Shown here piece by piece: positions 19,968 to 53,077 of a stretch of DNA of 53,141 bases. The notes below the pieces were generated by a model, which was given only the letters and a program-made list of their open reading frames with translations, had not been told where the DNA came from and searched no databases. Location: NCBI RefSeq assembly GCF_001642955.1, contig NZ_LWSK01000030.1, positions 1-53,141 on the forward strand, given 5' to 3'. Within the stretch, counting starts at the first letter, position 1. Each line of letters begins with the position of its first letter. The DNA is from Rubripirellula obstinata. Lineage in GTDB: Bacteria > Planctomycetota > Planctomycetia > Pirellulales > Pirellulaceae. Made by a program: the position numbers and the translations under genes.

Positions 19968-19978
19968 AGTTGACCCAA

Positions 19979-19982
19979 CCTT
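19979..19982 (-). promoter_or_regulatory. Ribosome binding site of giant gene 1
   Basis: AAGG lies 11 bases before the ATG at 19967. The leader reads AAGGTTGGGTCAACTATG, close to the leader of the upstream giant gene (AAGGTTTGGTCTATG). This supports ATG 19967 over the in-frame TTG at 19997. The 65-bp gap 19968-20032 holds nothing else recognisable, so both giants are probably on one transcript. Confidence 0.6.
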
Positions 19983-20032
19983 GCGGGTAGGATTCAAGTG
20001 AAGAATAAATGTTGTAAGTTCAGTCGTTACTT

Positions 20033-32000: not shown

Positions 32001-35000
32001 GTGTCCGTAAAGGCTTGACCATCGGGCGTTAACCCAGCACCGGCGGTGTCGTCGGCAAAGCTGGTCAGGATCACCGGAGCACCTGGCAAACCGACAATCT
32101 GAACCGAACCACCGATGCGATCTTCGATGCTGGATCTGGTTCCGCTGGCACTGATGCCGGTTCCCGATCGGGCGCTAAACGGTGAACCTTCGCCATCAAG
32201 TTTGACGACCAAGCTTTCGTCATCGCGGCTGATCAATCGCAGACCGCCAACCGAATGCAAGTTGCCTACATCGACCGTGTCGAACAGCAAGTGAACGATG
32301 TCGGTATCGTCCCAAACGCTGGCCGTGGTCAATTGCCCGCCGCGAATTTCCAACCCAGAAATCTGGCGTTCGTTAACGTTCAGTGCCGGAACATTTTCGT
32401 AACGATTCAATCGAATCAGTGGCCCGTAGTTGTCATCAAGCGATGCGAATCGGTCGCTGTCGCCGGTTTGTCGGCCCAGGTCCACAATCCGCTCGTCCGT
32501 CATCGAGTCCACATCGATATCGATGATGCTGCCGCGGTTATCGACAAACTCATTGCCAACAATCGTCGGCTGTGATCCTTGAACAAAAATTGTCGATGGT
32601 GCAACACCCAAGCGACCGAATCGGCCAACCGGGCCGGAACCGTCTTGTCCGTCTTCGTTGAATTGGAATTGGCTGTTGGTCACCCGTGCATCGGCTTGAT
32701 GCAGTTCTAGTGCCGCGAAACCACGGCTCTGTCCGCCGGTAATCAAACTGACGCCGCCGCCGTAGGCAATCGTTGCATTGTCCAGCGACACAAACGCATT
32801 GGGGCTGGCGTAAATGCCCGACCAATCGCCACGATCTGGGGCGGTGGAACCGGACGGTGAATTGGCGTCGTTGGTGGTGTCGAACGTCCCGCCCGCACCA
32901 AAACGATCGTCGGCCCAACTGGTAAAAATCACCGGACGACTTTGCGTTCCTTCGGCGATCAACTGAGTGCCCTGGCCCAATTCAATCCGCGTTCCACGGA
33001 ACTTCAACACCGCACCTGGATCGATCACCAGCGAAGCGTCCAAACGACCGCGAATGCCGGTTCGCGTTAGATCCAAAACGCCAGTCGATGTCGTGCCGTT
33101 GTCCAGGAAGTCAACATCGGTCGCGTCCAAGTCGGCAATGAAGAAGTATTGGTTGGTCGCAGGATCCAAACGATACAAACGTCGCGAAACGTAGTCCGAA
33201 TTCGCGGCGATCGGCTGCAGGTTCGCTACTCGGATCGACGAATCGGCACCGACGACAACGTTGGACGATGGCTCGCTTGCCAATGATTCAAAACCACCTG
33301 CATCGACGAACGTTAGGCGATAGTTATAGGTGCCAGCGTCCAGCGTTCCGCCGCTGATCGGTTGGAACGAAGCCGAAACCAAATCAGGCTGGATGCCGTC
33401 TTGGATCGAACCGCCCGGTGTGCCGGTGATGAAGATGTTTTCAGCGACGTAGTGAACGACGCTGACGTCATCAAACCGAGCCGACAACGACAATTGTTGT
33501 GGCGGCAATTCGGGTGACGTTTCGATGCGAATGAACAGCCCATTGACGCTGTTATTGGTGATCACATTGTTGTGAAAATCAGGTCCAATCCGTGCGTAAT
33601 CAGGGTTGAACGATCCCGCTTGTTGGAAACGTGGCGACAGATAACTAGTTTCCTCGAAACTGTTGGGCGATGCACTGATCGCTGAATCGGCGCTAAAACT
33701 GATTTCGCTAAAGCTAACCGTTGGCCGTGTGTCAAAAATCTGAATCGGGTTGACCAATTGCTGAACGCTGTCGATCAACAGATCGCTGGTTCCGCCGTAG
33801 CGGATTTGGGCATGGTTGACGTGACGCAGGAAGATGCCTTCGTCTTCCAGATCAAAGCGTCCTTCGCTGATGTCCAAGTCGCGTCGGAAAACCAGACCGC
33901 CCCAATCACCAGGCTCCGGTGCAAGCAGTGGACTCTGCACGGTCGCCGCATCCGCATTGGGATCTTGGATGCTGGTAAAGATGACACTGCCGTCGTTAAA
34001 ATCGGGATGGCGGGCGTTGTCTTGACCCAGCAAGGTGGTCGTGATCGGCGAACCTTCGGGTGAAAGCTGGACCAATCGAGGTGTACCGAAAACCTGGATC
34101 ACGCTCTGGCTGCGGTCTTCCAAAAGTGTGCTACTGCCTGCCGCGATTCGGGCACTGCGCAGTTTGACAATCGCACCAGCGTCAAAGATTGCGGTGACGC
34201 CTTGTGGGACTTCCAGGTTGCGTCCGTCTTCCAATTCAAAGCCGCCAAAGTTGGACACGCCGACTTGGTAGCTGAAATTGTCTTCTTCGGTCGTGATGTC
34301 GCCGTCCAAACCGCCGTTACCGACGATTCGCACGATGTCACCGGAGATTGCTGATCCGAACGCGTTGGCGGTGGTGATTCCGGCGATGTTGTTGAACGGA
34401 TTATCGAGGCTGCCATCGGCGTTGGGGCCAGCGGTCTTGTCCACGAAGATGTTGCGTCCGAACGCTTCGCCGCCTTGGAAATCGCCGGACAACGCGATCG
34501 TTTGTTCTCCGGTGAATTCAAGTGTTTGACCGGAAACCAAAACGCGAACGCCGGTTTCGGAGATCGGTCGGCTGTTGATTGCCGTGCGAAGTTCTTCCAC
34601 CAAACCGTCTGCGGGCGTGGCGACAGCGCCGACGGATCCATCGTCAAAGATGACGGGAATGTTGCCGGGCGTCAGCATGGACACAGACGTAACGAACTGG
34701 AATGTTTGCGTGACGCCGTTTGCACCGGTTACCGCCAACGTTTGACCGTTGGTGATTGCGGTTCCGTCACCGGTGATGGAAAGCAATCGATTTTCGGGAC
34801 GCGTTTGGAACCAAAAATTGTGAACTCCACCGGCTAGTCCATCACCGTCGCCATCGATCGGAGTGCCCGGCACACCGGTGCGTGGATCGTCGGTGTCACG
34901 GATCACGTTGACTTCATCAACTTGCGGCTCGAAACGCAAACTGAGGTCGTATCGACCTTGAGTCAGTCCGCCAAAACCGCTCTCTGGAATCGTTGGGTCG

Positions 35001-37723
35001 TAGGTGTCATTGCCGCTGGCGGCGACGCCAATGTAGTAGGTGCCTTCGCCAAGCGACGCGATGATGCGTGAATCTTCGCTGAAGTAATCATCGTTGCGGC
35101 GCAGTTGTTCAACATCACCACCGGTCAATTGGACTGGTTGCAAGTTCAGGTCCGCCGTGCCGACGATTTCTCCGCCGCCTCGGACCACGGTGCCGGTCAA
35201 CAGGCCGGCGGACAGTGGGCTATTGTTGATTGCCGCGACAACTGCATCAGCACTCACGCCGCTGCGTGGAATGTTGACGATCAAACCGTTGCTGATCGCG
35301 TTTCCTTGTGCATCGATTTTCTGGGTGACCGAAACAGCGCCACCATCGTTGCTGACAAATTCAATCGTCGTGTTGTTGCCAAGCTTGCCGTTGCGAAGCG
35401 ATTCAAATTCAACCGATAAAGCAACTCCGACACCGAAGCTGGTGACGGCGGTTGCTTTGGTTTCTTGGAACAGTGTTAATGTTGAATCGAGCGAGCTTGA
35501 ATCGGGCAGACGTTCGGCGAACGTTTCGGCGGTCAGCGTGCCCAATCGATCGGCGTCATCCAAGTCGACCACAAATCGAAACAGGTCGATATCGTTGCTG
35601 TCGGGACGGTGAATGAATTGACCGTGCAGCGTGTCATAGTTGCCTGGGAACGTTGGTTCCAAGAATTGCAGTTCTTGCTGTTCCGACGGAATTTCAAACG
35701 GGTTCGGGAAACCAAAATCGGGGTAGAACGGATCAAAGGCGTTGATGTCTTCCGGTGTCGCGCGGCTTTGGACCGAGTTGATCGATGCGTTCAGGAACTG
35801 GGGCGACAGAGTCATCAACGTTTGCAGCGGCAAACCAGGGGCCTGTTCCAATCCCAACAGGAATCCGATTCCGGCCGCGGTCTTACGCGAGAAGTCTTCG
35901 CCAAACGCGGTGCCAAAGTTTGCTTGATTACTGAACACAATCGCCGGTTCAGCAAAGGTCGGATCGATACGCAGTGACGCGTTCAAAACGGGGTAGGATT
36001 GCAGCCGAGTGTCGGGCAATGCTGGCAGTACCGATGGGTCACCGACGGCAAACGTGATTCCTGAATCAACGGTTTCGCGGAACTGAACACCGACGCTGCG
36101 CGACCACAAATCCAAGGCTTCGCGAACTCGAGTTCGTTGCCGCTGGGTAATCTGGTTCAGGAACGAATTGCCGCCATTGGAAGCAAAGATTCCTTGGAAA
36201 TTGTAAGCGATTTCGGTGATGCCATCGGTCACGTCGGCAGCCGATTCGGAATTAGGATCGCCGAAGGCTGCGTTGACGAATTGAACCAATCCACCGCCAG
36301 CCAATTCAGGAATCTCGCGGCGACCGGGATCGTCATTGCCACCGGGAAGTTCAATGTCGAAAGGTTGCGGCGAAATCGATTCGCTAAGCACCAAGCTGGT
36401 GATTCCGTTGGAATTGTCCAACACGCCAACGTCAAAAGCCGTCGTCAAAGTCTCGCCTGCATCAATGCCAGTCAGATCGGTCGTTGTTGGTGGCAAGATC
36501 AAGTCGATTCGATCGTCAACCGCGGTGCCGATTCGCAGACGGAATGTTCCGCCGCCGATGCCAACGCCTGCATTGCCGTCGGCATCGGGCCCCAGGTTGT
36601 TGATGTCGTCGGCGAAGATCAATCGCGCGGTATGCGTGGCTTCGTCGTAGACCACGGTTTCGGGGAAGTACAACGCGTCGTCGGTCGTGCGAACAGTGTC
36701 TTGCGTTAACAGCAGTTGGTAAAAGCGAGGGTTTTCAGCGGAGCGTGCGGTGGGACTGCCGCTGACTTTGGCACCGCCCGCGGGTGCAACAAACGGCACA
36801 TTGGGATTGCCCGCAACGACGCTGGCACTAAAATCGGCCAACGTATCAATCGCGACCGCGATCGCTGAAACAGTGGTAATGCCGGTGGGGTACGAAACCG
36901 TGATCGTGCGAGTTGCCGGGTCCAGCGTCGCGGCGACTCGGGTTGCGGTGGTGCTGGGGGCAAAGTTGATTTGCGTATCGTCGAAACTGCCATCGACCAG
37001 GTTGCCGGTCACGGCGATCTGCTGAGCACCGACGGTGATGGTGCCGGTGGCCGATGAGTCTTCGACAAACAACGGATCTTCGTTGAAGTAAACAACGATC
37101 TCGTTGCGGTTTTGCACCAGCGATCCGTCTTCGGTTCGCACGACCGGTTGTGGAACGACGGCTTCGATCAACGCACCAAGTCGAAGTTCAAAATTAACCG
37201 ATTGGGCACCCTGGCCCGCGATGGAGGGCTGGAATGATTCGCCGTCGACGTTGCGAATCGCTTCGATGCCTTGGCTGGGGCTATCCACGCCAAAAACGGT
37301 GGCGCGATACAGATCATCAGGCAGCGAATCGGCGAAGCGAACCACGACTTCGTTTTGTGCGTTGTCACCCAGCGTCACCAAGCCGGGTTGAATCGTCACA
37401 TCATCGGCGGTCCCGAACAGGCCGTCACCGCCCGCTCGTTGCAACTGGATGCCGCTTAGGTTTGCGTCGTCGATTTGTTGGACTTCGTCGAACCGGAACG
37501 TCAACGCACGCGGTGCCTCATTCCGCACGCTGCCTTCGACAATCAGGTCGCCTTCGTTGGGTTGGATGCCAACCAATTGGGGCCCTGCCAATAATTGGCG
37601 TGGTTCCAAGGTTTCCAGCAGGTTGCGGCGTCGCTTTTGATGACTCGGCTTGTTGGATCGAGTCGTCTTGGCGGAGCGTTTGTCAGCTTTTTGCTTGCTG
37701 GAAGGACGCGGGCGAGAGGTCAT
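20033..37723 (-). CDS. Giant surface protein 2 (pseudo-metzincin, PPC, beta-helix, GEVED, cadherin-like, dockerin)
   Basis: A 5896-residue paralogue of giant protein 1 and first gene of the pair. Its ATG follows AAAGG by 8 bases. A basic N-terminus of about 35 residues leads to LEPRQLLAG (39-47). Then come beta domains, including a segment GALIEAVVPQPV similar to protein 1, a metzincin-like domain (about 525-632) without zinc ligands, PPC-like domains (about 710-970, 1978-2034, 2225-2296, 3331-3377), a parallel beta-helix region with GDWGG motifs (1088-1824), about ten copies of the unnamed DG...FEF module (near 978, 2845, 3105, 4008-4565, 4772), further beta-helix patches ending DRGSTERAD (up to 3881), GEVED (4705-5012), six cadherin-like modules (5015-5694), dockerin (5698-5776) and an acidic end. 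The only two cysteines I noticed are in the GEVED domain. Likely exported; the ligand is unknown. Confidence 0.92.
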   Translation of the reverse strand: MTSRPRPSSKQKADKRSAKTTRSNKPSHQKRRRNLLETLEPRQLLAGPQLVGIQPNEGDLIVEGSVRNEAPRALTFRFDEVQQIDDANLSGIQLQRAGGDGLFGTADDVTIQPGLVTLGDNAQNEVVVRFADSLPDDLYRATVFGVDSPSQGIEAIRNVDGESFQPSIAGQGAQSVNFELRLGALIEAVVPQPVVRTEDGSLVQNRNEIVVYFNEDPLFVEDSSATGTITVGAQQIAVTGNLVDGSFDDTQINFAPSTTATRVAATLDPATRTITVSYPTGITTVSAIAVAIDTLADFSASVVAGNPNVPFVAPAGGAKVSGSPTARSAENPRFYQLLLTQDTVRTTDDALYFPETVVYDEATHTARLIFADDINNLGPDADGNAGVGIGGGTFRLRIGTAVDDRIDLILPPTTTDLTGIDAGETLTTAFDVGVLDNSNGITSLVLSESISPQPFDIELPGGNDDPGRREIPELAGGGLVQFVNAAFGDPNSESAADVTDGITEIAYNFQGIFASNGGNSFLNQITQRQRTRVREALDLWSRSVGVQFRETVDSGITFAVGDPSVLPALPDTRLQSYPVLNASLRIDPTFAEPAIVFSNQANFGTAFGEDFSRKTAAGIGFLLGLEQAPGLPLQTLMTLSPQFLNASINSVQSRATPEDINAFDPFYPDFGFPNPFEIPSEQQELQFLEPTFPGNYDTLHGQFIHRPDSNDIDLFRFVVDLDDADRLGTLTAETFAERLPDSSSLDSTLTLFQETKATAVTSFGVGVALSVEFESLRNGKLGNNTTIEFVSNDGGAVSVTQKIDAQGNAISNGLIVNIPRSGVSADAVVAAINNSPLSAGLLTGTVVRGGGEIVGTADLNLQPVQLTGGDVEQLRRNDDYFSEDSRIIASLGEGTYYIGVAASGNDTYDPTIPESGFGGLTQGRYDLSLRFEPQVDEVNVIRDTDDPRTGVPGTPIDGDGDGLAGGVHNFWFQTRPENRLLSITGDGTAITNGQTLAVTGANGVTQTFQFVTSVSMLTPGNIPVIFDDGSVGAVATPADGLVEELRTAINSRPISETGVRVLVSGQTLEFTGEQTIALSGDFQGGEAFGRNIFVDKTAGPNADGSLDNPFNNIAGITTANAFGSAISGDIVRIVGNGGLDGDITTEEDNFSYQVGVSNFGGFELEDGRNLEVPQGVTAIFDAGAIVKLRSARIAAGSSTLLEDRSQSVIQVFGTPRLVQLSPEGSPITTTLLGQDNARHPDFNDGSVIFTSIQDPNADAATVQSPLLAPEPGDWGGLVFRRDLDISEGRFDLEDEGIFLRHVNHAQIRYGGTSDLLIDSVQQLVNPIQIFDTRPTVSFSEISFSADSAISASPNSFEETSYLSPRFQQAGSFNPDYARIGPDFHNNVITNNSVNGLFIRIETSPELPPQQLSLSARFDDVSVVHYVAENIFITGTPGGSIQDGIQPDLVSASFQPISGGTLDAGTYNYRLTFVDAGGFESLASEPSSNVVVGADSSIRVANLQPIAANSDYVSRRLYRLDPATNQYFFIADLDATDVDFLDNGTTSTGVLDLTRTGIRGRLDASLVIDPGAVLKFRGTRIELGQGTQLIAEGTQSRPVIFTSWADDRFGAGGTFDTTNDANSPSGSTAPDRGDWSGIYASPNAFVSLDNATIAYGGGVSLITGGQSRGFAALELHQADARVTNSQFQFNEDGQDGSGPVGRFGRLGVAPSTIFVQGSQPTIVGNEFVDNRGSIIDIDVDSMTDERIVDLGRQTGDSDRFASLDDNYGPLIRLNRYENVPALNVNERQISGLEIRGGQLTTASVWDDTDIVHLLFDTVDVGNLHSVGGLRLISRDDESLVVKLDGEGSPFSARSGTGISASGTRSSIEDRIGGSVQIVGLPGAPVILTSFADDTAGAGLTPDGQAFTDTNGDSFNSRPEGNDWRSILLDEYSNDRNFDYILERNITSSVAPGLNGLAANSQVLGDLAPNVNYGDDQHRLGFEVEGFLSSDDDVDTYSFTAEAGTRIWVDVDKTSFTLDSVIEILDADGNVIARSDNSFDEIAGTPLQAVQPILGGTASSLEGGTPGDSRFGAGGLYEDYASTNPRDAGISLSLPGNRGTRSVFFFRIRSASQNPNDASGGITNGGYRFQLRLREAQEFPGSIVRHADIRYANHGIHVRGLMADSPLLGDAQENESVVFSNAEGGTPSFISSNNSITSNPLVPGQRAQYIGDLLHSKNKTFSVGGELSNFFDIDFYQIDVLGGPEDNLQGIQDLQTPTVFDIDYADGFSRPNTSLVVFYDADGEFGDQTPQLVFFGESSNVLDDQASTISTDSLDILTRGSISTGDPLIGPVSLTRGTYYVGVVADGAVPDALNSPTVRREPIESLVRIFDDHVETNGGSTAVDPIQPSFTDPAELNPGWTITTDRALDVGHQITSTFNRSRTFADSQPSIQFEQNIIGDTILNFQDLTAGDPTFSLSSDPNVGDAAANTSNIIPHTKVFGTTANEVVDIYRFEVFADGSQVILDVDNGFNPSSLNGGELPEGTPEGIEATDDPNSVDLQLHLLDATGNIAGFNTTSLATDGALGSARNRTSFFDPSTSTPFTNDPYIETTLATGVYFVAVSPEGTTYDPVTGSFTLAEAERPASGSYELNVSVQNHPSDSGDIGNQSYRFDRSVDSGTLASRNFDLSGYSAGDQPRFYFNYFFNRAAGDDVTIQVRQVVGEPDVDGLDPIDPIDGADIVTAISPFDFQLIPSATGDNVWRQGIISLEQFAGMDNLSIEFVYTTDSADIGPEGLYLDDLVVGFAERGELITNSAPGVTTVSGANAGFLAGEYQLEVRPSTAYGSSVVDPLFGTDTFVLTQSFDTNDRQIEGSASIIAPHADQLSDGDSFVLSDGVRSVRFEFDLIGSPAATAGSIRIPYQIDDPATPDVNEASTQSQIADAIRDAINLPVVRSIIEVSASDSTGSATGGFGDNQVAISGTIVGDFNVLNSPNDLPESGTPLNANDDFKLPVVFTSGTGDSNVTRSQSMVIVENNRISDVRGIGIWSETSDRGVDPEDPFNFSVSRSPVGTTNPGAVRNLPTLNNSVIGGEAPGIVVRNNTIDQAGYAGVKVEGDIRPYVIDSSEFAFEDVDISNLFGDLIVDGLAMTIDANGVRVVFEFDDINGDAAPLGSGTVDGDGVADGHVPIHYRRSSGVGPADSRYEVMAAIISSIQGSILVTNGIVPLIEATLGTSLQVADPNAGTIFETPQNGNAAVYLEGATNIQYDTDFQDVRARDFGPFDLTGLAAVFDAPQPVSRIVNNTIYGNDGTESTFVEAADDTLNDLISQAVNTRAGSAHTGPYVDTGTIAGPGDVDLFQVELGSGDRLIADIDTLVADGALPAGVDTTLRVFNSNGVEVAINEFTVARAQFDLGIADSDDDGADASTVDPFIDFTATIPGTYYVGVSSAVNAAYDPNSISGRGALADASAFDYTVGLEVYAPRTFVLSIDDLNNNRTGNNQGSRGSDLIGTSFTITQIADLSNADTPSNQQTFTFSGPVGGQRLGNGDINIPIPTQNPNTYFVPETIAAIANAISGAPFVTNPNTTNPPLPNHTFGNGPDGLSGPIGPVTALGLGGPDGNGPGLELFNPFFGRVSDGNDSAGTANFSDFTGFGYNRSSGMPVFSVGLAGTSSLGDGTTELYVYVENAAEITISPEAAAAGLRLDPVAGNNIDQLIPETGILFTGGSSGTALNNVLSNLHQGIVLEETKFGGFFPGPADIHPKPAIAIATANTFQHIEPDNNVFRTNMTQPFSGNGNIGIIDGPSNINATNDDFNVTLGNEDPLFVNAAGGDFVPTFDTTIIDSSVNAVTQRDRLTDVLQSVGLSMSNVLAPNRDINGVLRADDPNVAPPPGLGSQIFKDRGSTERADFVGPVALALNPADNESVTGETDPFVSVIQLPEGIYDEFRIQLRDTGDASDPFNGQGIDDNTVVVSVIDGLRSSGANVTLFENDQLLTEGVDYSFGYDPNQNVITLTPLAGIWRSDRSYRALLNNQDRSVVVVPSAADLNDGDQLSIVDSRGGELVFEFETGYSLFAPQPITLQVPAVGAGAGGLLDGDTFQIDDGVNPPVTFEFNNDALTLPGTVPVPLEAVPAGVSDLSAYLGRIAAEIFAAIQRQVDAATLDVDARVIGTEVIIGADRGATAVTSGSALDQPARTLAVQVPSIANIADGDQIIISDGQITQGFEFTTDGNVAAANNLPINIAGLITSTEIATAMREAINDSPLMLGSAVAGIEADILYLNLPAGGTVDASDSQLTVVGLSRTPVDGETITITPSDSVDGETVFTLELDNDGVIDATIDNNAPVAFTRSMTADEINLAINNAIDALPAIAGLNTNDIQQVPGGQLSIGGLEGLEINASGPSLAVTGEPSVAGRTGIEVFGPLLLSVPADGGRVIIPGAVFSVIDNQGVEQFFEFRIEGGTALPNLPDANFIDYTSFDSAEVIRDAIIASVNANAAGVDTEQGGPGIVSFGRIEDGRVNTAGRTIDGVPVPGLLGSSVRRGTVADGEVLTITQADITVNYEFEAAVGGNGVMPGNVRVAFTAASTAQDIAQALAAAIDNNKNGLLLDPVATDDGIVELNDVPGTIVDVSAAPTLSRFGVPGGATPVRILPSFGSTEVKRALINAINSINQPGQPALTTLVAEDRGGNTLFVSGAVSFGEGISNFALPAISDLSGNPLEPNRNDDTTQFTYLLPTIGLDYGDAPDPVAGVAGRYPTSLEFDGARHIVGGGLTLGTTVDTNLDGIPTAAADGDDATLVISETGTLFTISNVGGVATVNINTGTVAPLTRDGDTIVIDTGVAQATLEFDTNGRFDEDNFAISPTNPSSAASIAEAIRDAIAISPLNPASVTTTSTSVTISGDDEDGVQFLGTNGNIINAGIATPIEVTVTGSGVLEAWIDFNADGDWTDPGEQIIPMDPSSPFAARRDELCPVGLTGETDNNFGGTGMPETRTFCIIVPPTTTAPIASTETYARFRVSATGGLSPTGLALSGEVEDYALQLTDGLPPTVSDAQANQTFNTNEDTALVVVSPGGLLSGIVDPNGDPVSINPNDVTVPGTPRELFTVGGMLAGELNLSSDGSFDFTPAAEFNGVVQFTAGVTDGQLNSPRPITVTITVDPINDMPERGSGYQVINRTIAEDAVQIFTADELIFNTANSAAGPIFVAGPMNELGQGLIFDSVSSVRGMNMSELGGTLVISSDGTEIQYTPPQDYDGAIPDTFNYSVVDVPTDGTTPETSSPADQGFVEISITAVNDAPIARDDNFQGQEDQELTIPILSATAPFGILNNDSGGPAGENQTVSLVTSGFPMQTTAGGNVRLGNGNTLIYTPRGLFSGIDTFQYSVTDSDGEIGTATVSINLSNVNNNPIFEGVNGAKQNGSTLENPLPVNMFQREESKTVPNTETFDLNTWFSDPENAPLTYAVISDNPSVATVSLGATANNLLRIEYPSFGFGTANLTITATDPEGASTTVVVTANVQNTEDAPTRIDTLDPLSGVEDQIVTADLRTIFNDPDNTPLTYSVLRLGTTFNPTPAQIANHPLIQSITFVGDQLRIELKPNQSGTVDLIEIAASDGLSQATDSFSLNIASVPDAPVAGDDAYFLPIGSSLTFASPAGGLLRNDVDPDGDAISIQLETVAGSAAAGIALNADGTFTYQSPVGGSVGDQADLTYRIVDSTGRVSNTATVTFTLNQSRYQNPIASLREDVTADGNISALDALRVLNFLQRRSSATGGTGSVPVSTIVTAPPDFLDVNGDGQISAFDALLVINHLREVNNAPSQFEPEFIAPADTASTSVTTTIASSAITSSIVSPDSSGMPSRQLELVESVQSESESTITTDQATDKLLASGMSIDTTGNDSATDWLSNTEGPTVSADEHDEALASVFDEIGFDEI
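20395..20632 (-). other. Dockerin type I-like domain of giant protein 2
   Basis: Two repeats, DVTADGNISALDALRVLN and DVNGDGQISAFDALLVIN, with a linker of about 28 residues, at residues 5698-5776. The second loop matches the calcium-binding consensus very well; the first has Thr at one loop position. The layout, including the preceding QNP, matches the dockerin of giant protein 1. Confidence 0.9.
35828..35875 (-). other. Degenerate metzincin zinc motif in giant protein 2
   Basis: Residues 617-632 read AGIGFLLGLEQAPGLP, which fits HEIGHLLGLEHAPGLP with every catalytic position changed: Ala617, Gly618, Phe621 and Gln627 replace His, Glu, His and His. The framework Gly624 and the hydrophobic residues remain. 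Upstream, TQRQRTRVREALDLWSRSVG matches the serralysin-type helix, and a hydrophobic strand precedes the motif as in active enzymes. The replacements differ from those in giant protein 1. Confidence 0.75.
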
Positions 37724-45955: not shown

Positions 45956-47077
45956 TCACGCCGGTGATGGGCGACCGTAGTAGAAGCCTTGCGCGAGATC
46001 GAAACCGAGTTCGCGACACGCCAAAGCTTCCTCGGGAGTCTCGATGCCTTCGGCCAGTGCGGCGATATCTAAATCTCGCACCATTTGAACCAGCGTTTCT
46101 AGCATTCGACGTCGTTCGTCACTCGCCTTGTCGATTCCGCGAATCAGCGAGATGTCAAACTTGACGTAGTCCGGTCGGGCTTCGATCAATTCAGCCAATC
46201 GAGCTTGGCCGGAACCAAAATCGTCGTACGCCAATCGGATGTTCAAATCTCGCAACGCCGAATGAAGCGTGTTCATGGATTTTGGATTGGTGACCGATGA
46301 TTCGTGAATCTCCAAAACCAAATCGGTGCCACCGGTCATGTCTCGCACCTTGACCAGCGAATCGATTAGACCGGCGATGTCTTCCATTTCGCGTGGGTGA
46401 GTGTTCACGAACAGCGATGGTCGGTCCGGCAAATCGCGGCCCACTCGGATGCCTTCCCAGCGAAGCAGGCGGCTAAGTTCGACTTCTAGGTTGAGTTGTT
46501 CGGCGGCTTGGAACATTGCTCCGACCGATTCGAGGCCAAAGACACTGCCGCGACCAAGGATTTCAAAACCGACGCCCTTTGCACCCGCAACATCGACGAT
46601 GACTTGAAAGTGAGGTTTAACAAGACGTTCGCTCATCAGCCGATCAAACTGGACAAGCGCCAGTGCTTGATCGCAGACGTTTTCAGCGATGGTGCCGTTG
46701 GTCATTCCGGTGGGCGATTGCCGACGAACGCGGAACGGAGCTTCGGCAAAGTGAATTAGGTCTTCTTCGGAAAGCTTGCAGGTTTCGCCTTGTTCGATTC
46801 GGTTACCGTTGATGTAGGTACCATTGGTGCTGCCCAGGTCACGCAAGTAAAGCGCACCCGATTCCACCCACAGCGCGGCGTGATTGCCGCTGACGGTTCG
46901 GAATTGCAACTTCATCGACACGCCAGTCTTTCGACCAACGATGTAAGGGTTGCCGTCAATGTGCGCGTGCAGAACGCTCTCGCCTGGCTGTGTTGGGCCG
47001 GACAAAAACCAGACGTCTTCGGTGACGACGGTACTGCGACGAATACGGTCGATCGATGCGCTATCAACAGTTGGCAT
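45956..47077 (-). CDS. FHA-EAL protein, predicted c-di-GMP phosphodiesterase
   Basis: A 373-residue protein. The FHA domain at 24-118 has Gly48-Arg49, the SGNHA segment (63-67) and GSTNGT (82-87), the surfaces that bind phosphothreonine. The EAL domain at 140-373 keeps the residues needed to bind two metals and cut c-di-GMP to pGpG: Glu172 in FEILGRG, Asn225 in NTHP, Glu256 in LEIHE, Asp285-Asp286 in DDFGSG, Lys306 in VKFD, Glu343 in AEGIE and Gln363. No membrane segment is visible. ATG 47077 is chosen because GGAAG lies 8 bases upstream; the ORF is open further upstream. The FHA domain implies recruitment to a Thr-phosphorylated partner. The kinase encoded 2 kb away on the other strand is a conceivable source, but this is only a proximity argument. 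Confidence 0.9.
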   Translation of the reverse strand: MPTVDSASIDRIRRSTVVTEDVWFLSGPTQPGESVLHAHIDGNPYIVGRKTGVSMKLQFRTVSGNHAALWVESGALYLRDLGSTNGTYINGNRIEQGETCKLSEEDLIHFAEAPFRVRRQSPTGMTNGTIAENVCDQALALVQFDRLMSERLVKPHFQVIVDVAGAKGVGFEILGRGSVFGLESVGAMFQAAEQLNLEVELSRLLRWEGIRVGRDLPDRPSLFVNTHPREMEDIAGLIDSLVKVRDMTGGTDLVLEIHESSVTNPKSMNTLHSALRDLNIRLAYDDFGSGQARLAELIEARPDYVKFDISLIRGIDKASDERRRMLETLVQMVRDLDIAALAEGIETPEEALACRELGFDLAQGFYYGRPSPA

Positions 47078-47090: not shown

Positions 47091-47313
47091 GAGGATCTCA
47101 AAAGTGGTTTGCTTCTGAGACAAAATTCTGAAACGTAAATGAGATTGGGTAAAAGGTCTGTCGCTGAAACGTCACGCCAAATCGGCAAAATGCTTCCTTT
47201 CATCAGTCCTTCGTGCAAACCTAGGTCAGTAATTGGTGAACAGACGAATTTTTTTCAAGATGACCGTTGTAAATAGGCAGGTTCGGTTTCCACCGGCCAA
47301 TCGCTAGGTCGAA

Positions 47314-47507
47314 GTTGTAGGCCGGAATAAGCGCATCGCAGTTCCGGCAATGACAAGGTGCTAAGGAACGAGCGGGAAATTAATGTCGCCTTTCGCTCCG
47401 CGAAAGTAGCGAATTCGCTGCTTTCGCGGAGCGAAAGGCGACTATAAAAAGTCGCACGTTGCTAGGTTGGATTACCGGAACTGCGCTGCGCTTGTTCCGC
47501 TTACAAC
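47314..47507. repeat. Nested palindromes: one repeat element inside another
   Basis: The outer arms 47314-47351 and 47471-47507 belong to the same family as 38186-38278 and pair at about 33 of 38 positions with one gap. In the copy near 38.2 kb the loop is 19 bases; here it is 119 bases and contains the complete 70-bp element otherwise found at 1235-1304. The inner element (47385-47454; arms 47385-47406 and 47421-47442, perfect over 22 bp) is therefore probably an insertion into the loop of the older palindrome. The gap 47078-47667 between two divergent genes shows no gene and no promoter that I can assign. Confidence 0.85.
47385..47454. repeat. Copy 2 of the 70-bp palindromic element
   Basis: It matches 1235-1304 at 69 of 70 positions; the only change is C to T in the loop (GAATCC versus GAATTC). 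Both copies end with TATAAAAAGTCG beyond the stem, so the conserved unit is longer than the palindrome itself. Confidence 0.93.
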
Positions 47508-47667: not shown

Positions 47668-49008
47668 ATGACGCTTTTAGCTAACGAAACGCATTCATTC
47701 GAACCAAGCCTTTTGGGCGGCCTGCTGTCCGACGACACCTTTTGGCCTTCGCAACCGCAAAACGTTGGCGAAACGGGTCTAAGTGAATCGTTCATCGAAG
47801 CACTCGTGCTGAAAACAGTCCTGATTGCCGGAACCGTCAGTGGCCGATCGATCTCTGATCGCACCGGTTTGGCGTTTCGCGTGATCGAACCGTTGATGGA
47901 TGTCCTACGCACACGCAAATTGTTGTCGCATGTGCGTCCCGCCGCATTCAATGACTATTACTACTCATTGACCGAAGCCGGCCAGCAACGCGCCCAAACA
48001 CACATGCAAAACTGCAGCTACGTTGGCCCGGCACCCGTGCCTTTGGCCGACTACGTTTTGAGCGTCGAAGCACAAGCAGCGGGACTCGATCCCATCGACC
48101 GCGATCAACTGCAACAAGCACTGTCGCGAATATCTTACCAAGACGATTTGTTGGACCAATTGGGACCAGCGATCAACAGCAACACGGGCTTGTTCCTGTT
48201 CGGGCCTCCCGGAAACGGAAAAACAACGATCGCCCGCTGCCTGACTCAATGTCTGGGCCAAGAAATCTGGATTCCGCATGCGATCATGGATGACGGAAAC
48301 CTGATCAAACTTCAAGACGACGCCTTTCACCGTCCCGCACCGATTTCAGAAGCCGGATCGGATTCGTCCAGCGGCAATATCCTGAAGACCCAGGAATGGG
48401 ACAAGCGATGGCTTCGAATTCAACGTCCCACCGTGGTCGTTGGTGGTGAATTGGTAATGGAAAACCTAGAAGTTCGTCACGATCCACGATCCAATATCTG
48501 TGAAGCTCCGTTGCAAATGAAGAGCAATTGCGGATGCCTGTTGATCGATGACTTTGGAAGACAACGCATTGCACCCGAGGAATTGCTGAATCGTTGGATC
48601 GTGCCGCTTGAAAACAGTTGCGATTATCTGACGCTGCCAACGGGAAAGAAGATTCAAATTCCGTTTGAGCAATTGATCATCTTTTCGACCAACTTGGATC
48701 CCGACGAATTGGTCGATGAAGCCTTTCTTCTCCGCGTGCCTTACAAGATTTTTGTTGGCGATCCGACCGAAGACGAATTTCGTGCGTTGATGAACGAAGT
48801 AAGCGAAAAACTCGGATTCCCATCGACTCCCGAAGCTTCCGAACACCTCTTTCGCTACTACAAAGAAACCGAGCGCCCGCTGCGTCGTTGTCACCCGCGT
48901 GACTTGATGACGCAAGTCGCCAACTTCTGTCGCTATCGCAAGATGCCGATGACGGTTCGACCAGAGTACCTGGATCAAGCCTGCCGTAGTTACTTTAGCC
49001 AACTGTAG
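47668..49008 (+). CDS. Winged-helix AAA-family ATPase
   Basis: A 446-residue cytoplasmic protein. Residues about 40-115 look like a winged helix (EALVLKTVLIAGTVSGRSIS, then a second helix and YYYSLTEAGQQRA). The ATPase core starts near 150: Walker A GPPGNGKT at 179-186, Walker B CLLIDDFG with Asp294-Asp295, sensor 1 STNLD with Asn342, and a candidate arginine finger Arg356 in FLLRVPYK. Between Walker A and B lies a long insertion (205-285) with WLRIQRPTVVVGGELVMENL, which is not in ordinary AAA proteins. The C-terminal lid has RPLRRCHPRDLMTQVANFCR. No membrane segment, no protease domain. The next gene starts 11 bp after its stop, so the two are surely one transcript. The role is not known; ATP-driven remodelling controlled by the partner kinase is a reasonable guess. 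Confidence 0.82.
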   Translation: MTLLANETHSFEPSLLGGLLSDDTFWPSQPQNVGETGLSESFIEALVLKTVLIAGTVSGRSISDRTGLAFRVIEPLMDVLRTRKLLSHVRPAAFNDYYYSLTEAGQQRAQTHMQNCSYVGPAPVPLADYVLSVEAQAAGLDPIDRDQLQQALSRISYQDDLLDQLGPAINSNTGLFLFGPPGNGKTTIARCLTQCLGQEIWIPHAIMDDGNLIKLQDDAFHRPAPISEAGSDSSSGNILKTQEWDKRWLRIQRPTVVVGGELVMENLEVRHDPRSNICEAPLQMKSNCGCLLIDDFGRQRIAPEELLNRWIVPLENSCDYLTLPTGKKIQIPFEQLIIFSTNLDPDELVDEAFLLRVPYKIFVGDPTEDEFRALMNEVSEKLGFPSTPEASEHLFRYYKETERPLRRCHPRDLMTQVANFCRYRKMPMTVRPEYLDQACRSYFSQL

Positions 49009-49019
49009 AAACCACTTCG

Positions 49020-52000
49020 ATGACTACACTTCAAGCTCCGAAGATCCAAGCGGGATACGAACCGCTGCCTGGTTACCGTTTAGAAAAACGGATCGGCCAA
49101 GGTGGTTTTGGTGAAGTGTGGAGAGCCGGTTCGCCAGGTGGAATGAAGAAGGCAATCAAGTTTGTCTTCGGCAGCCATGACCAATCGCGTGCGACGCGAG
49201 AAATGCGATCGCTCGAACGCATTAAAGGTGTCCGACACCCTTTTCTGCTGACACTCGAACGATTCGAGATCATTGATGATCAATTGGTGATTGTGACGGA
49301 GCTTGCCGACGAATCGCTGGAAGATGTGCAGGCCCGTTATCGTAAAAACGGATCGTGCGGAATTCCACGCGAAAAGCTGCTGTCGTATTTGAATGACTCA
49401 GCCGATGCGCTGGACTATCTGCATGATTCCTACAAGCTTCAGCACCTGGACATCAAGCCTGGCAACCTGTTGATGGTGGGTGGGCACGTCAAAGTTGCCG
49501 ACTTTGGTTTGCTGAAAGATCTTCGTGACGTTGAATGCAGCGTTGTCGGTGGTTTGACGCCCGTTTACGCGCCGCCGGAACTTTTTGATGGTCGCCCCAG
49601 CATCCACAGCGATCAGTATTCGCTGGCAGTGATGTATCAAGAATTGCTGACCGGGACTCGTCCATTTAGCGGTCGTACGATTGCCCAATTGGCAAGCCAA
49701 CATGTTCACAGCCCGCCAAATTTAGAACCGCTGCCGCCCAGCGATCGACCAGTTTTGGCGAAGGCTTTTGAAAAGACTCCAGAGCGGCGTTTCCCGAGTT
49801 GCCGCGAGTTCGTTGAAGCACTTCGTGATGCACGTAAGCGTCCAGTTTCGGTCGCCAGTTCTACTGACACGCCAATCTTTGGCCAGCAGGAAGCAAAAGC
49901 CGACGTCGCCGACTTGCCGCTGCTTGCCGACGGCGGTGGGTTGCTGCCAGAAAAAGCTAAAACGGAGTCAGCAACCAAGCATGCACTCGTGATCGCCATT
50001 GGCGGAAGTGGTGCAGAATGTGTTCGCGAACTTCGCCGCCGGGTAGCGGACCCAAGAATGTCCAGCGGATTGAAACTGCACAGCGTGTTGATTGATACCG
50101 ACATGCGGACCATTCACTCGATGCGTTTGGCCGAAGCATCCGACCGCGTGCCCAAGTGCAATCTAATCCACACACCGTTGAAAACAGCTCACCAGTACCG
50201 CGAAAATGGAACCGAGAAACTGCGTTCGATTTCGCGTCGTTGGATCTACAACGTTCCTCGAAGCGGAGCGACCGAGGGTATGCGTCCCTTGGGACGACTT
50301 GCGCTAGTGGATCATGGCGAGATGGTGACCAAGAAACTGTCTGAATCGATCCACCAATTGATTGAAGAAGTCGGGCAAGAATCGGTTGACGTTTATGTGG
50401 TCGGTTCATTGGCGGGTGGAACATGCAGCGGAATGTACATCGACGTCGTGCATTTACTACGCGATCTGATGGACAAATCCGGTCTGGCCGACACGAAAAT
50501 TCTGTCTTTGTTGACTTCGGCACCGTTACTGGTTGATCAACGAAATCCAATTGCGGCGCACGACACGCAAGCAGCACTTGTGGAAATCGAACATTTTCTA
50601 AAAGCTGGCAACGGATACCCGGGCGACGAAGGCGCGGGGTGGCCCAGCGTTCCTGCTGCACGAACGCCGCTGCATGACATTTATCTTGTCGCAGGTGCGT
50701 CGAACAGCCGGTTTGGAATTTCGCCAGTCGATACGATCGTTGAATACTTGTGGGCAGACGTGAACGAGTGCGACGAACTTTTTGAACAAGCAAGAAGTCC
50801 CGCCAAGCAAGAAAAGGGAACGGTATCGAAGCTTGGATTCCGAAGCGTCGGCGTGGTTCCTTTGGGCGATTCGCATCGCTTAGAACAAGGATTACTTGCA
50901 CCGGCATTGGTTCGCGAAGTGATGATGGCGTGGATCGGCAATCCGGCCACGGCGTCAAACCGTGCGTCCTTTGTCGTGCAACGTTTGATGCGAAGAATTG
51001 GATTGTCGCCTGACGCGATTACGGCTCAAATCCAAAACTTTCTCACCGAAAAACAAATCACAACCGACGCTGCAGTTGAATCAAAAGGCAGCTCGCAGGA
51101 TTCCGACGCTGGCGTTGCCAAGCCCGATCCCGTCACGCTGCAAATCGAGGCTCTTGCCAACGGAGGTCGATTTGATTGGATGTGTGCGGGTTGGATTAAC
51201 AATCTGTATCGTGAAATTTCAGTTGGCCTTTCCGATCGCCGCGTCGATTTAGTGACCGCGGTTGAATCTCTTAAATTGATCAAAGACCAAGCAGCGAAAA
51301 TGAAAGCTCACGCTTTCGATTCTTTGACGGACTTACCAAACACATCTGGAAATTCGCGGCCGCAAAGCAAATCAGATCGTGATTTTGTTTGTCGAACCGT
51401 GCGTGCAGTGACTGCAGTTCAGTTTGATCACTTGTCACGCAGCATTAAGTTCCTGGAAGAAAGACTCGAACGCTTTTCGACAATCTTGGCGATTGCGATC
51501 AATGAATCAAAACAGAATTCAAGAGAAGAGAATCCCTGGGCTTCGATGCCTGATGAGATTAAGGCTTACCTGCCAGAGCTAAAAAATTGCCTGCACGATG
51601 CCGCTGTGAACTCCTATTTGGTTCGACCGCTGAACGACCAAAGTTCCAACGTTGACGCTCGATATTTGATCACCGAATTATCGCGTCAGGCAACAGATTT
51701 GGTCATCCCGGTTGTGCAGCAACACAACAACCTGTTGGTTGTTGAACTGGGGAAGGAAATGAAGCATGATTCTGTGCAAAGCGACGGTACAAAAGCGTTC
51801 AACACAGCCAAAATGGTGCAGCATTCGATCGATGCAACGCAAACGATGCCGGATTCTGGTCAGCGTTTAACGGACTCGCCGGTAACAATCGAAGAAGCAC
51901 TTGAACTGGCGCGTCCCGAACTGCTTTCGCTAGGCGGAATGCAGCGATTGGTTTTGGTCGTCAGCAATGAAATTGAACGAGGACGGATGGAGTCAGAGCT

Positions 52001-52178
52001 AAGAGCGATCTATGACGGAGCCGTCACCGTGGCTGTGATTCCGGGGGCAGCACCCAAGCTGGTTCATGAAGCTCAGCAAATTGAACTCAAAAATGTGCTG
52101 TCCAGACTCAGTGCACTCAATGGCGGAAACGAACACGTCACCGCGCGGCTATCCAGTCGTACCGACGTTGCTTGGTAG
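49020..52178 (+). CDS. Ser/Thr protein kinase fused to a tubulin/FtsZ-like domain
   Basis: A 1052-residue protein. Residues 18-275 are a Hanks-type kinase: glycine loop GQGGFGEV (26-33), Lys47, catalytic loop HLDIKPGNLL (142-151), DFG at 161-163 and APPE at 184-187. The catalytic loop has Leu before Asp (HLD rather than HRD), a non-RD kinase, so activation may not need loop phosphorylation. After a linker, residue 322 onward is a tubulin-like domain: ALVIAIGGSGAECVRELRRR begins the nucleotide fold and GSLAGGTCSGMYID at 462-475 matches the tubulin/FtsZ signature GGGTGSG with one Cys. The C-terminal 400 residues are helical and charged. No membrane segment. It lies 11 bp behind the AAA gene and ends 1 bp before the convergent gene. 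Such a fusion could couple phosphorylation to GTP-dependent assembly; polymerisation is not shown. Confidence 0.85.
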   Translation: MTTLQAPKIQAGYEPLPGYRLEKRIGQGGFGEVWRAGSPGGMKKAIKFVFGSHDQSRATREMRSLERIKGVRHPFLLTLERFEIIDDQLVIVTELADESLEDVQARYRKNGSCGIPREKLLSYLNDSADALDYLHDSYKLQHLDIKPGNLLMVGGHVKVADFGLLKDLRDVECSVVGGLTPVYAPPELFDGRPSIHSDQYSLAVMYQELLTGTRPFSGRTIAQLASQHVHSPPNLEPLPPSDRPVLAKAFEKTPERRFPSCREFVEALRDARKRPVSVASSTDTPIFGQQEAKADVADLPLLADGGGLLPEKAKTESATKHALVIAIGGSGAECVRELRRRVADPRMSSGLKLHSVLIDTDMRTIHSMRLAEASDRVPKCNLIHTPLKTAHQYRENGTEKLRSISRRWIYNVPRSGATEGMRPLGRLALVDHGEMVTKKLSESIHQLIEEVGQESVDVYVVGSLAGGTCSGMYIDVVHLLRDLMDKSGLADTKILSLLTSAPLLVDQRNPIAAHDTQAALVEIEHFLKAGNGYPGDEGAGWPSVPAARTPLHDIYLVAGASNSRFGISPVDTIVEYLWADVNECDELFEQARSPAKQEKGTVSKLGFRSVGVVPLGDSHRLEQGLLAPALVREVMMAWIGNPATASNRASFVVQRLMRRIGLSPDAITAQIQNFLTEKQITTDAAVESKGSSQDSDAGVAKPDPVTLQIEALANGGRFDWMCAGWINNLYREISVGLSDRRVDLVTAVESLKLIKDQAAKMKAHAFDSLTDLPNTSGNSRPQSKSDRDFVCRTVRAVTAVQFDHLSRSIKFLEERLERFSTILAIAINESKQNSREENPWASMPDEIKAYLPELKNCLHDAAVNSYLVRPLNDQSSNVDARYLITELSRQATDLVIPVVQQHNNLLVVELGKEMKHDSVQSDGTKAFNTAKMVQHSIDATQTMPDSGQRLTDSPVTIEEALELARPELLSLGGMQRLVLVVSNEIERGRMESELRAIYDGAVTVAVIPGAAPKLVHEAQQIELKNVLSRLSALNGGNEHVTARLSSRTDVAW

Positions 52179-52179
52179 T

Positions 52180-52884
52180 TTATGCCGCGTTTGCCACGGC
52201 TGTGATATTCACAATCTGACTAATCGCCAGCGTTATCCCGCGGATCGCTTCGGCGCGCAGTGCCGTTTTTCGCTCTGACCAAGCTCGATTGAGCATCAAT
52301 TCGATGCCGATGTAGGGTTGGTTCCGGAATTCCGATCGCATGGACTTGGTGATCGAATCGCTTGACCCGCGTCGTGGATAGTTGCGGCGAACGCGCAGCA
52401 TCGGTGCCGCATCGTACATTTCGTCGATCAAATCTAGGCAGAAATCGACTTCATCGTCATGCGACGGATCGTATGAAAGTCCAACGTCGGTGCGTCGTAT
52501 CTTGCCTGACTTGCTGCGAAGTCCAAATGTCTGAACCGACAAATGCACCACGTACGGTTGACGCGAAAGCTGATGCGAAATCGCGCTGCGGACTTTTTCG
52601 CGATACGGAAAATAGATCGTGTCCAACAACCGTTGCCGATCATCAGGTTTCCATTTTCGAGTCTGCTTTCCAAACAGGTCACGGTGGTGACTGGAAAGCC
52701 GAACATCGATCAGCGATGACGCATGTTTGTTTTGAATCAGCGGAACGCGAAGCAGACGCGATAATTCGCCAGCAACCTCTGAAGCCGGATCATGGCATAC
52801 AGCCGGGATTTCCAGGTCTTCACGAAAACTTAGTTCCGGCGGGATCGATTGCCCACCTTGTTCGCAACTAAGTAAAACGCTCAT
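52180..52884 (-). CDS. N-formylglutamate amidohydrolase-like protein, active site altered
   Basis: A 234-residue protein of the N-formylglutamate amidohydrolase family. Family landmarks are SCEQGGQSIPPEL (6-18), HDPASEVAGELSRLL (31-45), SSLIDVRLSSHHRDLF (56-71), the YFPYREKV helix (91-98), VVHLSVQTFG (112-121), RTDVGLSYDP (131-140), RVRRNYPRRGSSDS (164-177) and YIGIELMLNR (191-200). Active members have His in the first (..H-S/G-G) and in the HSF/HSM motif; both are Gln here (Gln9, Gln118), and the Glu of the late ELE-N motif is Met197. It may therefore lack the usual metal-dependent hydrolysis. ATG 52884 is preceded by AGGA at 5 bases; the ORF extends 37 codons upstream without support. It converges on the kinase-tubulin gene, 1 bp apart. 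Confidence 0.78.
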   Translation of the reverse strand: MSVLLSCEQGGQSIPPELSFREDLEIPAVCHDPASEVAGELSRLLRVPLIQNKHASSLIDVRLSSHHRDLFGKQTRKWKPDDRQRLLDTIYFPYREKVRSAISHQLSRQPYVVHLSVQTFGLRSKSGKIRRTDVGLSYDPSHDDEVDFCLDLIDEMYDAAPMLRVRRNYPRRGSSDSITKSMRSEFRNQPYIGIELMLNRAWSERKTALRAEAIRGITLAISQIVNITAVANAA

Positions 52885-52889
52885 GAAAA

Positions 52890-52893
52890 TCCT
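52890..52893 (-). promoter_or_regulatory. Ribosome binding site deciding the start at 52884
   Basis: AGGA lies five bases before the ATG, directly ahead of the first conserved family motif. It favours this start over the ORF's upstream Met at 52995. Confidence 0.6.
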
Positions 52894-52995
52894 GAAATCT
52901 AAAAACCACCCGGAATTGCCCCAAAGTCTAGAAGGCCTAAACGCCACGACACAACCTTGATTCCAGAATTGATAGCATTCGCAGTGCGGGCACAA

Positions 52996-53077
52996 AAAGT
53001 AGGCCGTAGCGAGCCCCAGCGAGTTACGGCAATTTGCGCACCGCCGTAACTCGCTATGGCTCGCTACGGCCTACTTT
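52996..53077. repeat. 35-bp palindrome (GTAGGCCGTAGCGAGCC family)
   Basis: Arms 52996-53030 and 53043-53077 pair at 33 of 35 positions around a 12-base loop. It lies upstream of the amidohydrolase-like gene. The outer GTAGGCC is shared with the palindromes at 38186 and 45893. Confidence 0.9.

Follow-up and report, generated by a model that had tools for sequence, protein, structure and literature searches.

The end of a 53,141-nucleotide (nt) stretch of DNA from Rubripirellula obstinata (contig NZ_LWSK01000030.1; the whole stretch is called the window here) encodes an AAA+ ATPase of a subfamily designated AAA-T, a fusion of a Ser/Thr kinase to a tubulin-like domain designated TubK, and, on the opposite strand, a protein that combines an FHA domain with an EAL domain (FHA-EAL). 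These three proteins recur together across related planctomycetes, and the reading that we favour, which we judge to be about evenly poised between right and wrong, is that they form a threonine-phosphorylation and cyclic diguanylate (c-di-GMP) signalling module of Pirellulaceae-type planctomycetes, joined by a GGDEF protein in some lineages. The analysis shows which domains the proteins carry, how they are conserved and inherited together and how intact their key residues are; the wiring of this module, the steps of its mechanism and its output are treated below as proposals, and each separate step carries less weight than the signalling reading as a whole. An earlier note on this DNA had described a two-gene system of the ATPase and a kinase-tubulin protein encoded 11 bp apart. 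Both open reading frames (ORFs) are indeed present on the same strand with 11 nt between them; the limit of two genes has to be given up, because FHA-EAL belongs to the system as well, and so does GGDEF in some lineages.

Domains and key residues of TubK and the AAA-T ATPase

The union of a Hanks-type kinase and a tubulin-like domain in one protein, as read in the earlier note, was confirmed by Pfam matches to Pkinase (E 2.3e-30, above the Pfam cut-off) and to Tubulin_2, PF13809 (E 1.1e-23; 84.5 bits against a cut-off of 27), and both domains were found in all 44 aligned TubK proteins that were scanned, out of 97 loci, with Tubulin_2 counted at E ≤ 0.001. The window's genome (6.6 Mb) gave 49 rows of kinase-family matches and a single Tubulin_2 match. 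The catalytic Lys, HxD, DFG and APE motifs of Hanks-type kinases are all present in the window's TubK; across the 97 homologues, K47, N149 and E187 are kept in 97/97 and D144 and D161 in 96/97, and the activation-loop Thr180 is likewise kept in 96/97. These kinase residues are better conserved than the T4 loop of the tubulin-like domain. The GGTCSG motif of that loop is as the earlier note had written it; the loop reads AGGTCSG in the window against GGGTG(S/T)G in the family, its Cys occurs in 1 of the 97 homologues, namely the window's own, and near variants are found in other members that depart from the strict pattern.

The relationship of this domain to FtsZ and tubulin is distant. The canonical FtsZ/tubulin model PF00091 scored 15.5 bits on the window's TubK, below its cut-off of 33, and matched 5/44 members at E ≤ 0.001. 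When a profile of the tubulin region (40 sequences) was compared with E. coli FtsZ by hhalign, a probability of 3.1% was obtained (E 0.014, with 39 columns aligned close to the N-terminus), while a dehydrogenase used as control gave 0.7%, and the sole match of the tubulin-domain profile to PDB sequences, up to E 1, was 3zid, a tubulin/FtsZ GTPase (E 0.00095). AlphaFold2 models built from two-sequence alignments (the window's protein and its homologue from locus L032) reached a mean predicted local distance difference test (pLDDT) score of 36.0 for TubK and 37.3 for the ATPase. The least poor stretch of the TubK model, at about residues 320-500, shows the alternation of strand and helix of a GTPase core and is too weak to use. 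In FtsZl1 proteins the C-terminal part has coiled coil and is mostly helical; for TubK many helices are predicted between residues 569 and 937, in this model of mean pLDDT 36.0.

A kinase-regulated tubulin that stands in for the missing FtsZ in budding or cell division would be in keeping with a search for PF00091 in 60 genomes, of which 58, among them that of the window, gave no match. The two hits were a 229-residue ORF at a contig end and a 1060-residue ORF of G496 that scored under the cut-off and is itself a TubK. Tubulin_2 is, however, patchy in its distribution, being present in 100/149 sampled genomes of the window's family and in 21/343 genomes sampled across the phylum (18 above the cut-off), so TubK is not a general division protein; together with the weak conservation of the loop, this makes a substitute for FtsZ very unlikely. 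The PF00091 match in the 229-residue contig-end ORF, which comes from a congeneric genome (G497:C61, L197/L223), is a strong one, and contamination is possible.

The Walker A and B motifs that had been seen in the ATPase are well founded. The protein carries GPPGNGKTT (residues 179-187), LLIDDFGR (291-298), FSTN (339-342) and R356, and the core residues K185, D294, D295, N342 and R356 are identical in 79/79 aligned relatives; by their position in the motifs we take N342 to be sensor 1 and R356 to be the Arg finger. The Pfam AAA model gave 17.8 bits against a cut-off of 21.2 and the other AAA models were also below their cut-offs, so AAA-T is placed as a divergent AAA+ subfamily. The distance between Walker A and Walker B is about 100 residues, largely conserved save around residues 222-243. 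For residues 1-135, where the proposed winged helix would lie, there was no Pfam match below E 0.1 (Parvo_NS1 matched residues 98-196 at E 0.13). Many genomes, whether or not they have TubK, encode a paralogue that is about 45-51% identical among the matches listed, and AAA-T formed a clade apart from 12 paralogues (98 in the Shimodaira-Hasegawa-like approximate likelihood ratio test, SH-aLRT) in a tree that, like the TubK tree, was a quick one with long-branch warnings. Judged by their motifs, the kinase and the ATPase both appear to have intact catalytic sites.

TubK ends in a tail with the pattern R...R.D..W, which is present in 85/97 homologues (strict pattern, last 60 residues); among the 44 aligned members R1047 is invariant and R1043, D1049 and W1052 are nearly so. 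An AAA-docking peptide as the sole role of this tail was considered and rejected, because the tail is retained in three genomes that do not have AAA-T.

Conservation, layouts and the FHA-EAL and GGDEF partners

The kinase-tubulin fusion was found at 97 loci in 97 genomes and 48 genera, 94 of them in the window's family and the remaining 3 in a different family of its class. Gene calls in these loci are longest ORFs, genera are counted by coded labels, and the profiles with which AAA and FHA-EAL were found were built from the same loci. Synteny across planctomycetes, which the earlier note had put forward as a check, is extensive: the AAA gene lies immediately upstream of TubK on the same strand in 71/97 loci, with gaps of -277 to 457 nt (median 32), 49 of the 71 being ≤60 nt with overlaps included; in 5 of the 71 the adjacent AAA ORF is a fragment cut short by the end of a contig. 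Elsewhere the AAA gene is about 3 kb upstream with genes between (10 loci), near but in the opposite orientation (2), or outside the fetched stretch (14, of which 11 carry AAA-T elsewhere). Furthermore, AAA-T is present in 91/94 family genomes with an intact TubK vs 1/51 without (G422, 72% complete), a contrast in which species are not independent and which is large all the same. These counts were read off at a best hit of 1e-134 or better and include G375 and G443, where the AAA gene beside TubK is cut by a contig end; the 51 comprise 49 genomes that gave no match to Tubulin_2 and 2 in which Tubulin_2 is unfused, and the genomes with TubK fragments (G401, G430, G431 and G468, of which G430 and G431 have AAA-T) were set aside. 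These data support AAA and TubK as a conserved, co-inherited pair.

A few layouts keep the same partners. FHA-EAL diverges from a same-strand AAA and TubK, as in the window, at 56 of the 97 loci; AAA and TubK stand without FHA-EAL at 11; AAA, FHA-EAL and TubK follow one another on one strand at 10; and FHA-EAL precedes TubK without AAA at 9. Rarer are TubK alone (5), the same-strand order FHA-EAL, AAA, TubK (4) and an opposite-strand AAA ahead of FHA-EAL and TubK (2). At L219, where AAA is distant from TubK, FHA-EAL has remained beside AAA. Chance neighbourhood was rejected, as AAA and FHA-EAL recur across TubK loci. The loci L123 and L186-L188, one from the window's family and three from another, form one group in both the AAA tree and the TubK tree, and L123, L186 and L187 do so in the FHA-EAL tree as well, with L188 outside that set; because of this grouping across gene trees, the module seems to have moved between lineages as a unit.

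Conflict with mobile elements had been among the roles suggested for the pair, and an anti-phage or conflict system would account for the PADLOC matches to the mad6 kinase (7.8e-40), the PD-T4-6 kinase (4.4e-38) and the IetA AAA protein (1.2e-8); conflict systems that combine a tubulin with a GTPase have also been described (PMC7159879). The best stretches of the listed PADLOC matches are, however, the kinase region or the surroundings of the P-loop, with no full-length match among them, and the TubK-AAA pair is common to most sampled genomes of the family in few layouts, with no effector-like gene seen to recur beside it. Nor were the published TRAFAC GTPases, HSP70 or MoxR-vWA found in the window proteins scanned, and we regard such a system as highly improbable.

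FHA-EAL was the most frequent result of neighbour clustering around TubK besides AAA (76 genomes), followed by REC-GGDEF (23) and then by clusters of 16 genomes and fewer; in a laxer search FHA-EAL lay ≤7 kb from 81/97 TubK genes, in 43/48 genera. The window's protein matched FHA at E 2.8e-17 and EAL at E 2.9e-36 in Pfam, and among aligned partners FHA was found in 31/31 and EAL in 30/31. Residue counts were made for 76 of the 81 loci at sites that we take, from established knowledge of the families, to be the phosphothreonine residues of FHA and the catalytic residues of EAL, with the window's protein as the reference, in which every FHA residue tested and all nine EAL residues are present. 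Each of the FHA residues (G, R, S, H and N; seven sites tested) is kept in 76/76, and 57/58 loci where FHA-EAL stands ahead of AAA retain the full set of nine EAL sites. On this residue evidence the window's FHA-EAL looks equipped for c-di-GMP hydrolysis and is a predicted phosphodiesterase.

The GGDEF partner varies with the layout. Where FHA-EAL, AAA and TubK share one strand in that order (L123, L186-L188), they are preceded on that strand by a GGDEF gene whose motif is intact. Of the 21 loci where FHA-EAL directly precedes TubK, 18 have a member of the GGDEF cluster upstream in the opposite orientation, and in these 18 proteins the motif was not seen in 17 and is altered in L121; scanned members of the cluster carry different combinations of REC and CBS domains. 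In this alternative layout (L094, L105, L121, L166 and similar loci) the degenerate EAL and GGDEF proteins are apparent pseudo-enzymes from both sides of c-di-GMP turnover. A GGDEF partner was sought in the window's genome, where 8 matches to the L186 GGDEF protein lie on other contigs and none is clearly the partner.

The same neighbourhood bears on a membrane-remodelling machine, in which TubK would be the core FtsZl1 filament, tuned by its kinase and the ATPase, with FHA-EAL as a side branch. TubK belongs to the FtsZl1/Tubulin_2 family, and it was the presence of vWA, GTPase, OmpA and membrane-protein genes nearby that led to such a role being proposed for that family (PMC2875224). Around TubK, by contrast, it is AAA, FHA-EAL and REC-GGDEF that recur; vWA, GTPase and OmpA domains, which are typical but not defining for FtsZl1, were not found in the five window proteins scanned and are not recurrent in the 97 loci. 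A simple hydropathy scan rose above its threshold in 5/97 TubK, 0/79 AAA and 1/76 FHA-EAL proteins, so that 92/97 TubK look soluble, and the T4 loop is less conserved than the kinase residues. We consider this explanation rather unlikely.

Table 1. Positions of the module's genes, domains and intergenic region in the window.
Feature	Position	Strand	Description
AAA+ ATPase (subfamily AAA-T)	47668-49008	+	446 aa; Walker A 48202-48228, Walker B 48538-48561
TubK	49020-52178	+	1052 aa; Ser/Thr kinase, Tubulin_2 (FtsZl1) and C-terminal part
TubK kinase domain	49074-49769	+	residues 19-250; activation-loop Thr180 at 49557-49559
TubK Tubulin_2 match	49986-50609	+	residues 323-530; T4 loop GGTCSG at 50415-50432
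TubK C-terminal tail	52146-52175	+	residues 1043-1052, pattern R...R.D..W
FHA-EAL protein	45956-47077	-	373 aa; FHA residues 45-110, EAL residues 146-370
Divergent intergenic region FHA-EAL/AAA	47078-47667		590 nt; holds large imperfect inverted repeat 47364-47463

Proposed mechanism and a possible link to Tad pili

In the signalling reading, the nucleotide-binding tubulin-like domain would drive self-association of TubK and so bring kinase domains together, and the clustered kinases would phosphorylate one another, most simply on the activation-loop Thr180. The FHA domain of FHA-EAL would dock on the phosphothreonine and thereby place or activate c-di-GMP hydrolysis, and in the other layout the EAL pseudo-enzyme would keep the docking role only. 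The AAA ATPase could remodel or dismantle the assembly and so reset it. A likely output would be a switch between attached and free-swimming cells, perhaps by way of Tad pili, which are proposed because relatives of the ATPase sit in Tad-pilus operons. The tubulin-like part of TubK may thus be a switch rather than a skeleton. As a specific combination, a nucleotide-driven clustering switch formed by the tubulin domain, an FHA domain that passes phosphorylation on to c-di-GMP and a Tad-derived AAA protein that disassembles the whole is offered tentatively, as possible and on balance doubtful.

The Tad connection came from a plasmid collection in which relatives of the ATPase were found in 75 records, mostly from Rhizobium with a few from Burkholderia and others, at 34-37% identity among the matches listed. 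In 8/8 plasmid regions opened, of the 75 records, the relative lies inside a Tad/Flp pilus operon; five of these regions are from Rhizobium and three from Burkholderiaceae (L229, L230, L232-L235, L246, L247). The Tad-operon proteins are near full-length relatives of the window's ATPase (about 35% identity over 93-98%), but they sit inside the pilus operon, and neither a kinase-tubulin protein nor FHA-EAL is annotated in the eight stretches. The annotation of this ATPase on the alpha- and betaproteobacterial plasmids gives no role for it.

These operons, and the CpaF, TadB and TadC genes encoded on contig C109 of the window's genome, would also suit a Tad-pilus regulator, in which the ATPase acts on a Tad pilus encoded elsewhere and is itself controlled by TubK and FHA-EAL. 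Against this, when the surroundings of TubK and of the AAA paralogue were screened with 14 proteobacterial queries, two weak CpaF-like ORFs were the only Tad-like genes to be found; 13/14 queries were other than AAA, most of them Tad proteins, and diverged Tad genes could be missed. Such a regulator seems quite unlikely, and the Tad linkage of the AAA relatives is taken as a lead to function, not as proof.

Several observations weigh against the signalling reading. With respect to its output, no AAA gene is present on the 5.7-kb contig that carries the Tad genes of the window's genome, Tad genes were not found beside the AAA paralogue in the screen, and the flagellar FlhA family is present in 146/149 genomes, so there is no co-occurrence contrast with which to link the module to a motile-sessile switch. 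With respect to the tubulin-like domain, the strict T4 loop GGTG[SG]G is present in 40/97 TubK, the window's not included, and with the loop so loosely kept some members may not bind GTP. The ATPase does not accompany its partners everywhere: G346, G350 and G361 have TubK and no AAA-T, and the AAA paralogue was without TubK or FHA-EAL alongside at 11/11 loci fetched. Neither the window nor the vicinity of any of the 56 window-type loci has the GGDEF partner. Where FHA-EAL directly precedes TubK, the EAL sites are complete in 1/18 loci (L182), so c-di-GMP hydrolysis is not universal in the module; since FHA is kept throughout, and the EAL residues are retained in the window type and lost in this other layout, it is the reading of phosphothreonine that looks like the constant feature. 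Clearly similar FHA-EAL proteins also occur in genomes without TubK (e.g., G358 and G382), and experimental work on any of these proteins was not found in the literature.

Furthermore, no FHA-EAL was seen at ≤7 kb from TubK in 16/97 loci. A contig end interrupts 7 of them shortly upstream, and 9 are uncut; of the uncut, G451, G466 and G477 carry a 73-74% identical FHA-EAL elsewhere in the genome, and the congeneric G467 has an FHA-EAL fragment with stop codons beside AAA and TubK (L084, G467:C74:4881-5189), which is an apparent decay of the partner.

Other features of the window and relation to known systems

The FHA-EAL gene was taken to start at the ATG at 47077, and its ORF could be extended to a TTG at 47218. 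The inverted repeat between FHA-EAL and AAA (Table 1) looks like a dispersed hairpin element, because 20 nt of its arms recur exactly at 1235-1254 and 1273-1292 with the same inverted spacing; this 20-nt stretch has 4 matches in the window vs 0 in shuffles. Another near-perfect hairpin of different sequence, with 35-nt arms that are 94% complementary, lies near the window's end at 52996-53077. A gene for an N-formylglutamate amidohydrolase-like protein (52180-52995, minus strand) converges on TubK and is a member of no recurrent neighbour cluster of TubK loci. Most of the first 38 kb is taken up by two giant consecutive ORFs on the minus strand, at 1323-19997 (6224 aa) and 20033-37723 (5896 aa).

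The earlier note had put the system forward as a candidate undescribed one, which does not hold as stated. The FtsZl1 family, with four planctomycete members that carry an N-terminal kinase, was defined by Makarova and Koonin in 2010 (PMC2875224), so the fusion itself is published; a 2023 paper mentioned the kinase fusion again and treated Tubulin_2 as separate from the true FtsZ/tubulin family (PMC9871819), and one of 2024 reported the tubulin-like domain as the commonest domain exclusive to cytoplasmic kinases in the set studied (PMC11032199). A paper on the AAA partner was not found, and neither AAA nor FHA-EAL was found named as a partner of the fusion in the accessible parts of the literature, supplements aside. 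TubK thus shares with FtsZl1/Tubulin_2 proteins the tubulin-like domain and the N-terminal kinase, whereas the context published for that family is vWA, GTPase and OmpA and the context of TubK is AAA and FHA-EAL. A known fusion protein is now placed in a conserved module, proposed to be one of signalling, of which a description was not found.

A solved precedent for control of a c-di-GMP enzyme by FHA through phosphopeptide binding is the FHA-GGDEF protein DgcB of Bdellovibrio (PMC6733907); there, FHA is fused to the cyclase and its ligand is the N-terminal region of that same protein, whereas here it is fused to EAL and encoded beside a kinase. The GTPase-tubulin and MoxR-vWA conflict systems likewise pair a tubulin or an AAA ATPase with regulatory partners, but their ATPase is of another family than that of the window and the kinase-tubulin fusion was not seen in the parts of that source at hand (PMC7159879). 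According to the same source, MoxR-vWA systems occur in planctomycetes, and the tubulin theme is restricted to Firmicutes and Actinobacteria (PMC7159879). For MoxR-vWA, the bpMoxR model gave 17.2 bits against 27 and vWA was not found in the scanned window proteins. In the PpkA-Fha pathway of type VI secretion, a kinase, an FHA reader and an AAA+ remodeller act on a polymer; the TubK module has a tubulin-like domain and EAL instead.

If the tentative reading of the tubulin domain as a nucleotide-driven clustering switch is true, tubulin-like assembly would be wired directly to a second messenger in bacteria that do not have FtsZ. The conserved partners give the kinase-tubulin fusion, published in 2010 and with no function found reported, a context in which it can be tested. 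Altogether, these findings make it possible to test directly what a tubulin relative does in FtsZ-less bacteria, and they point to how such bacteria may control attachment.

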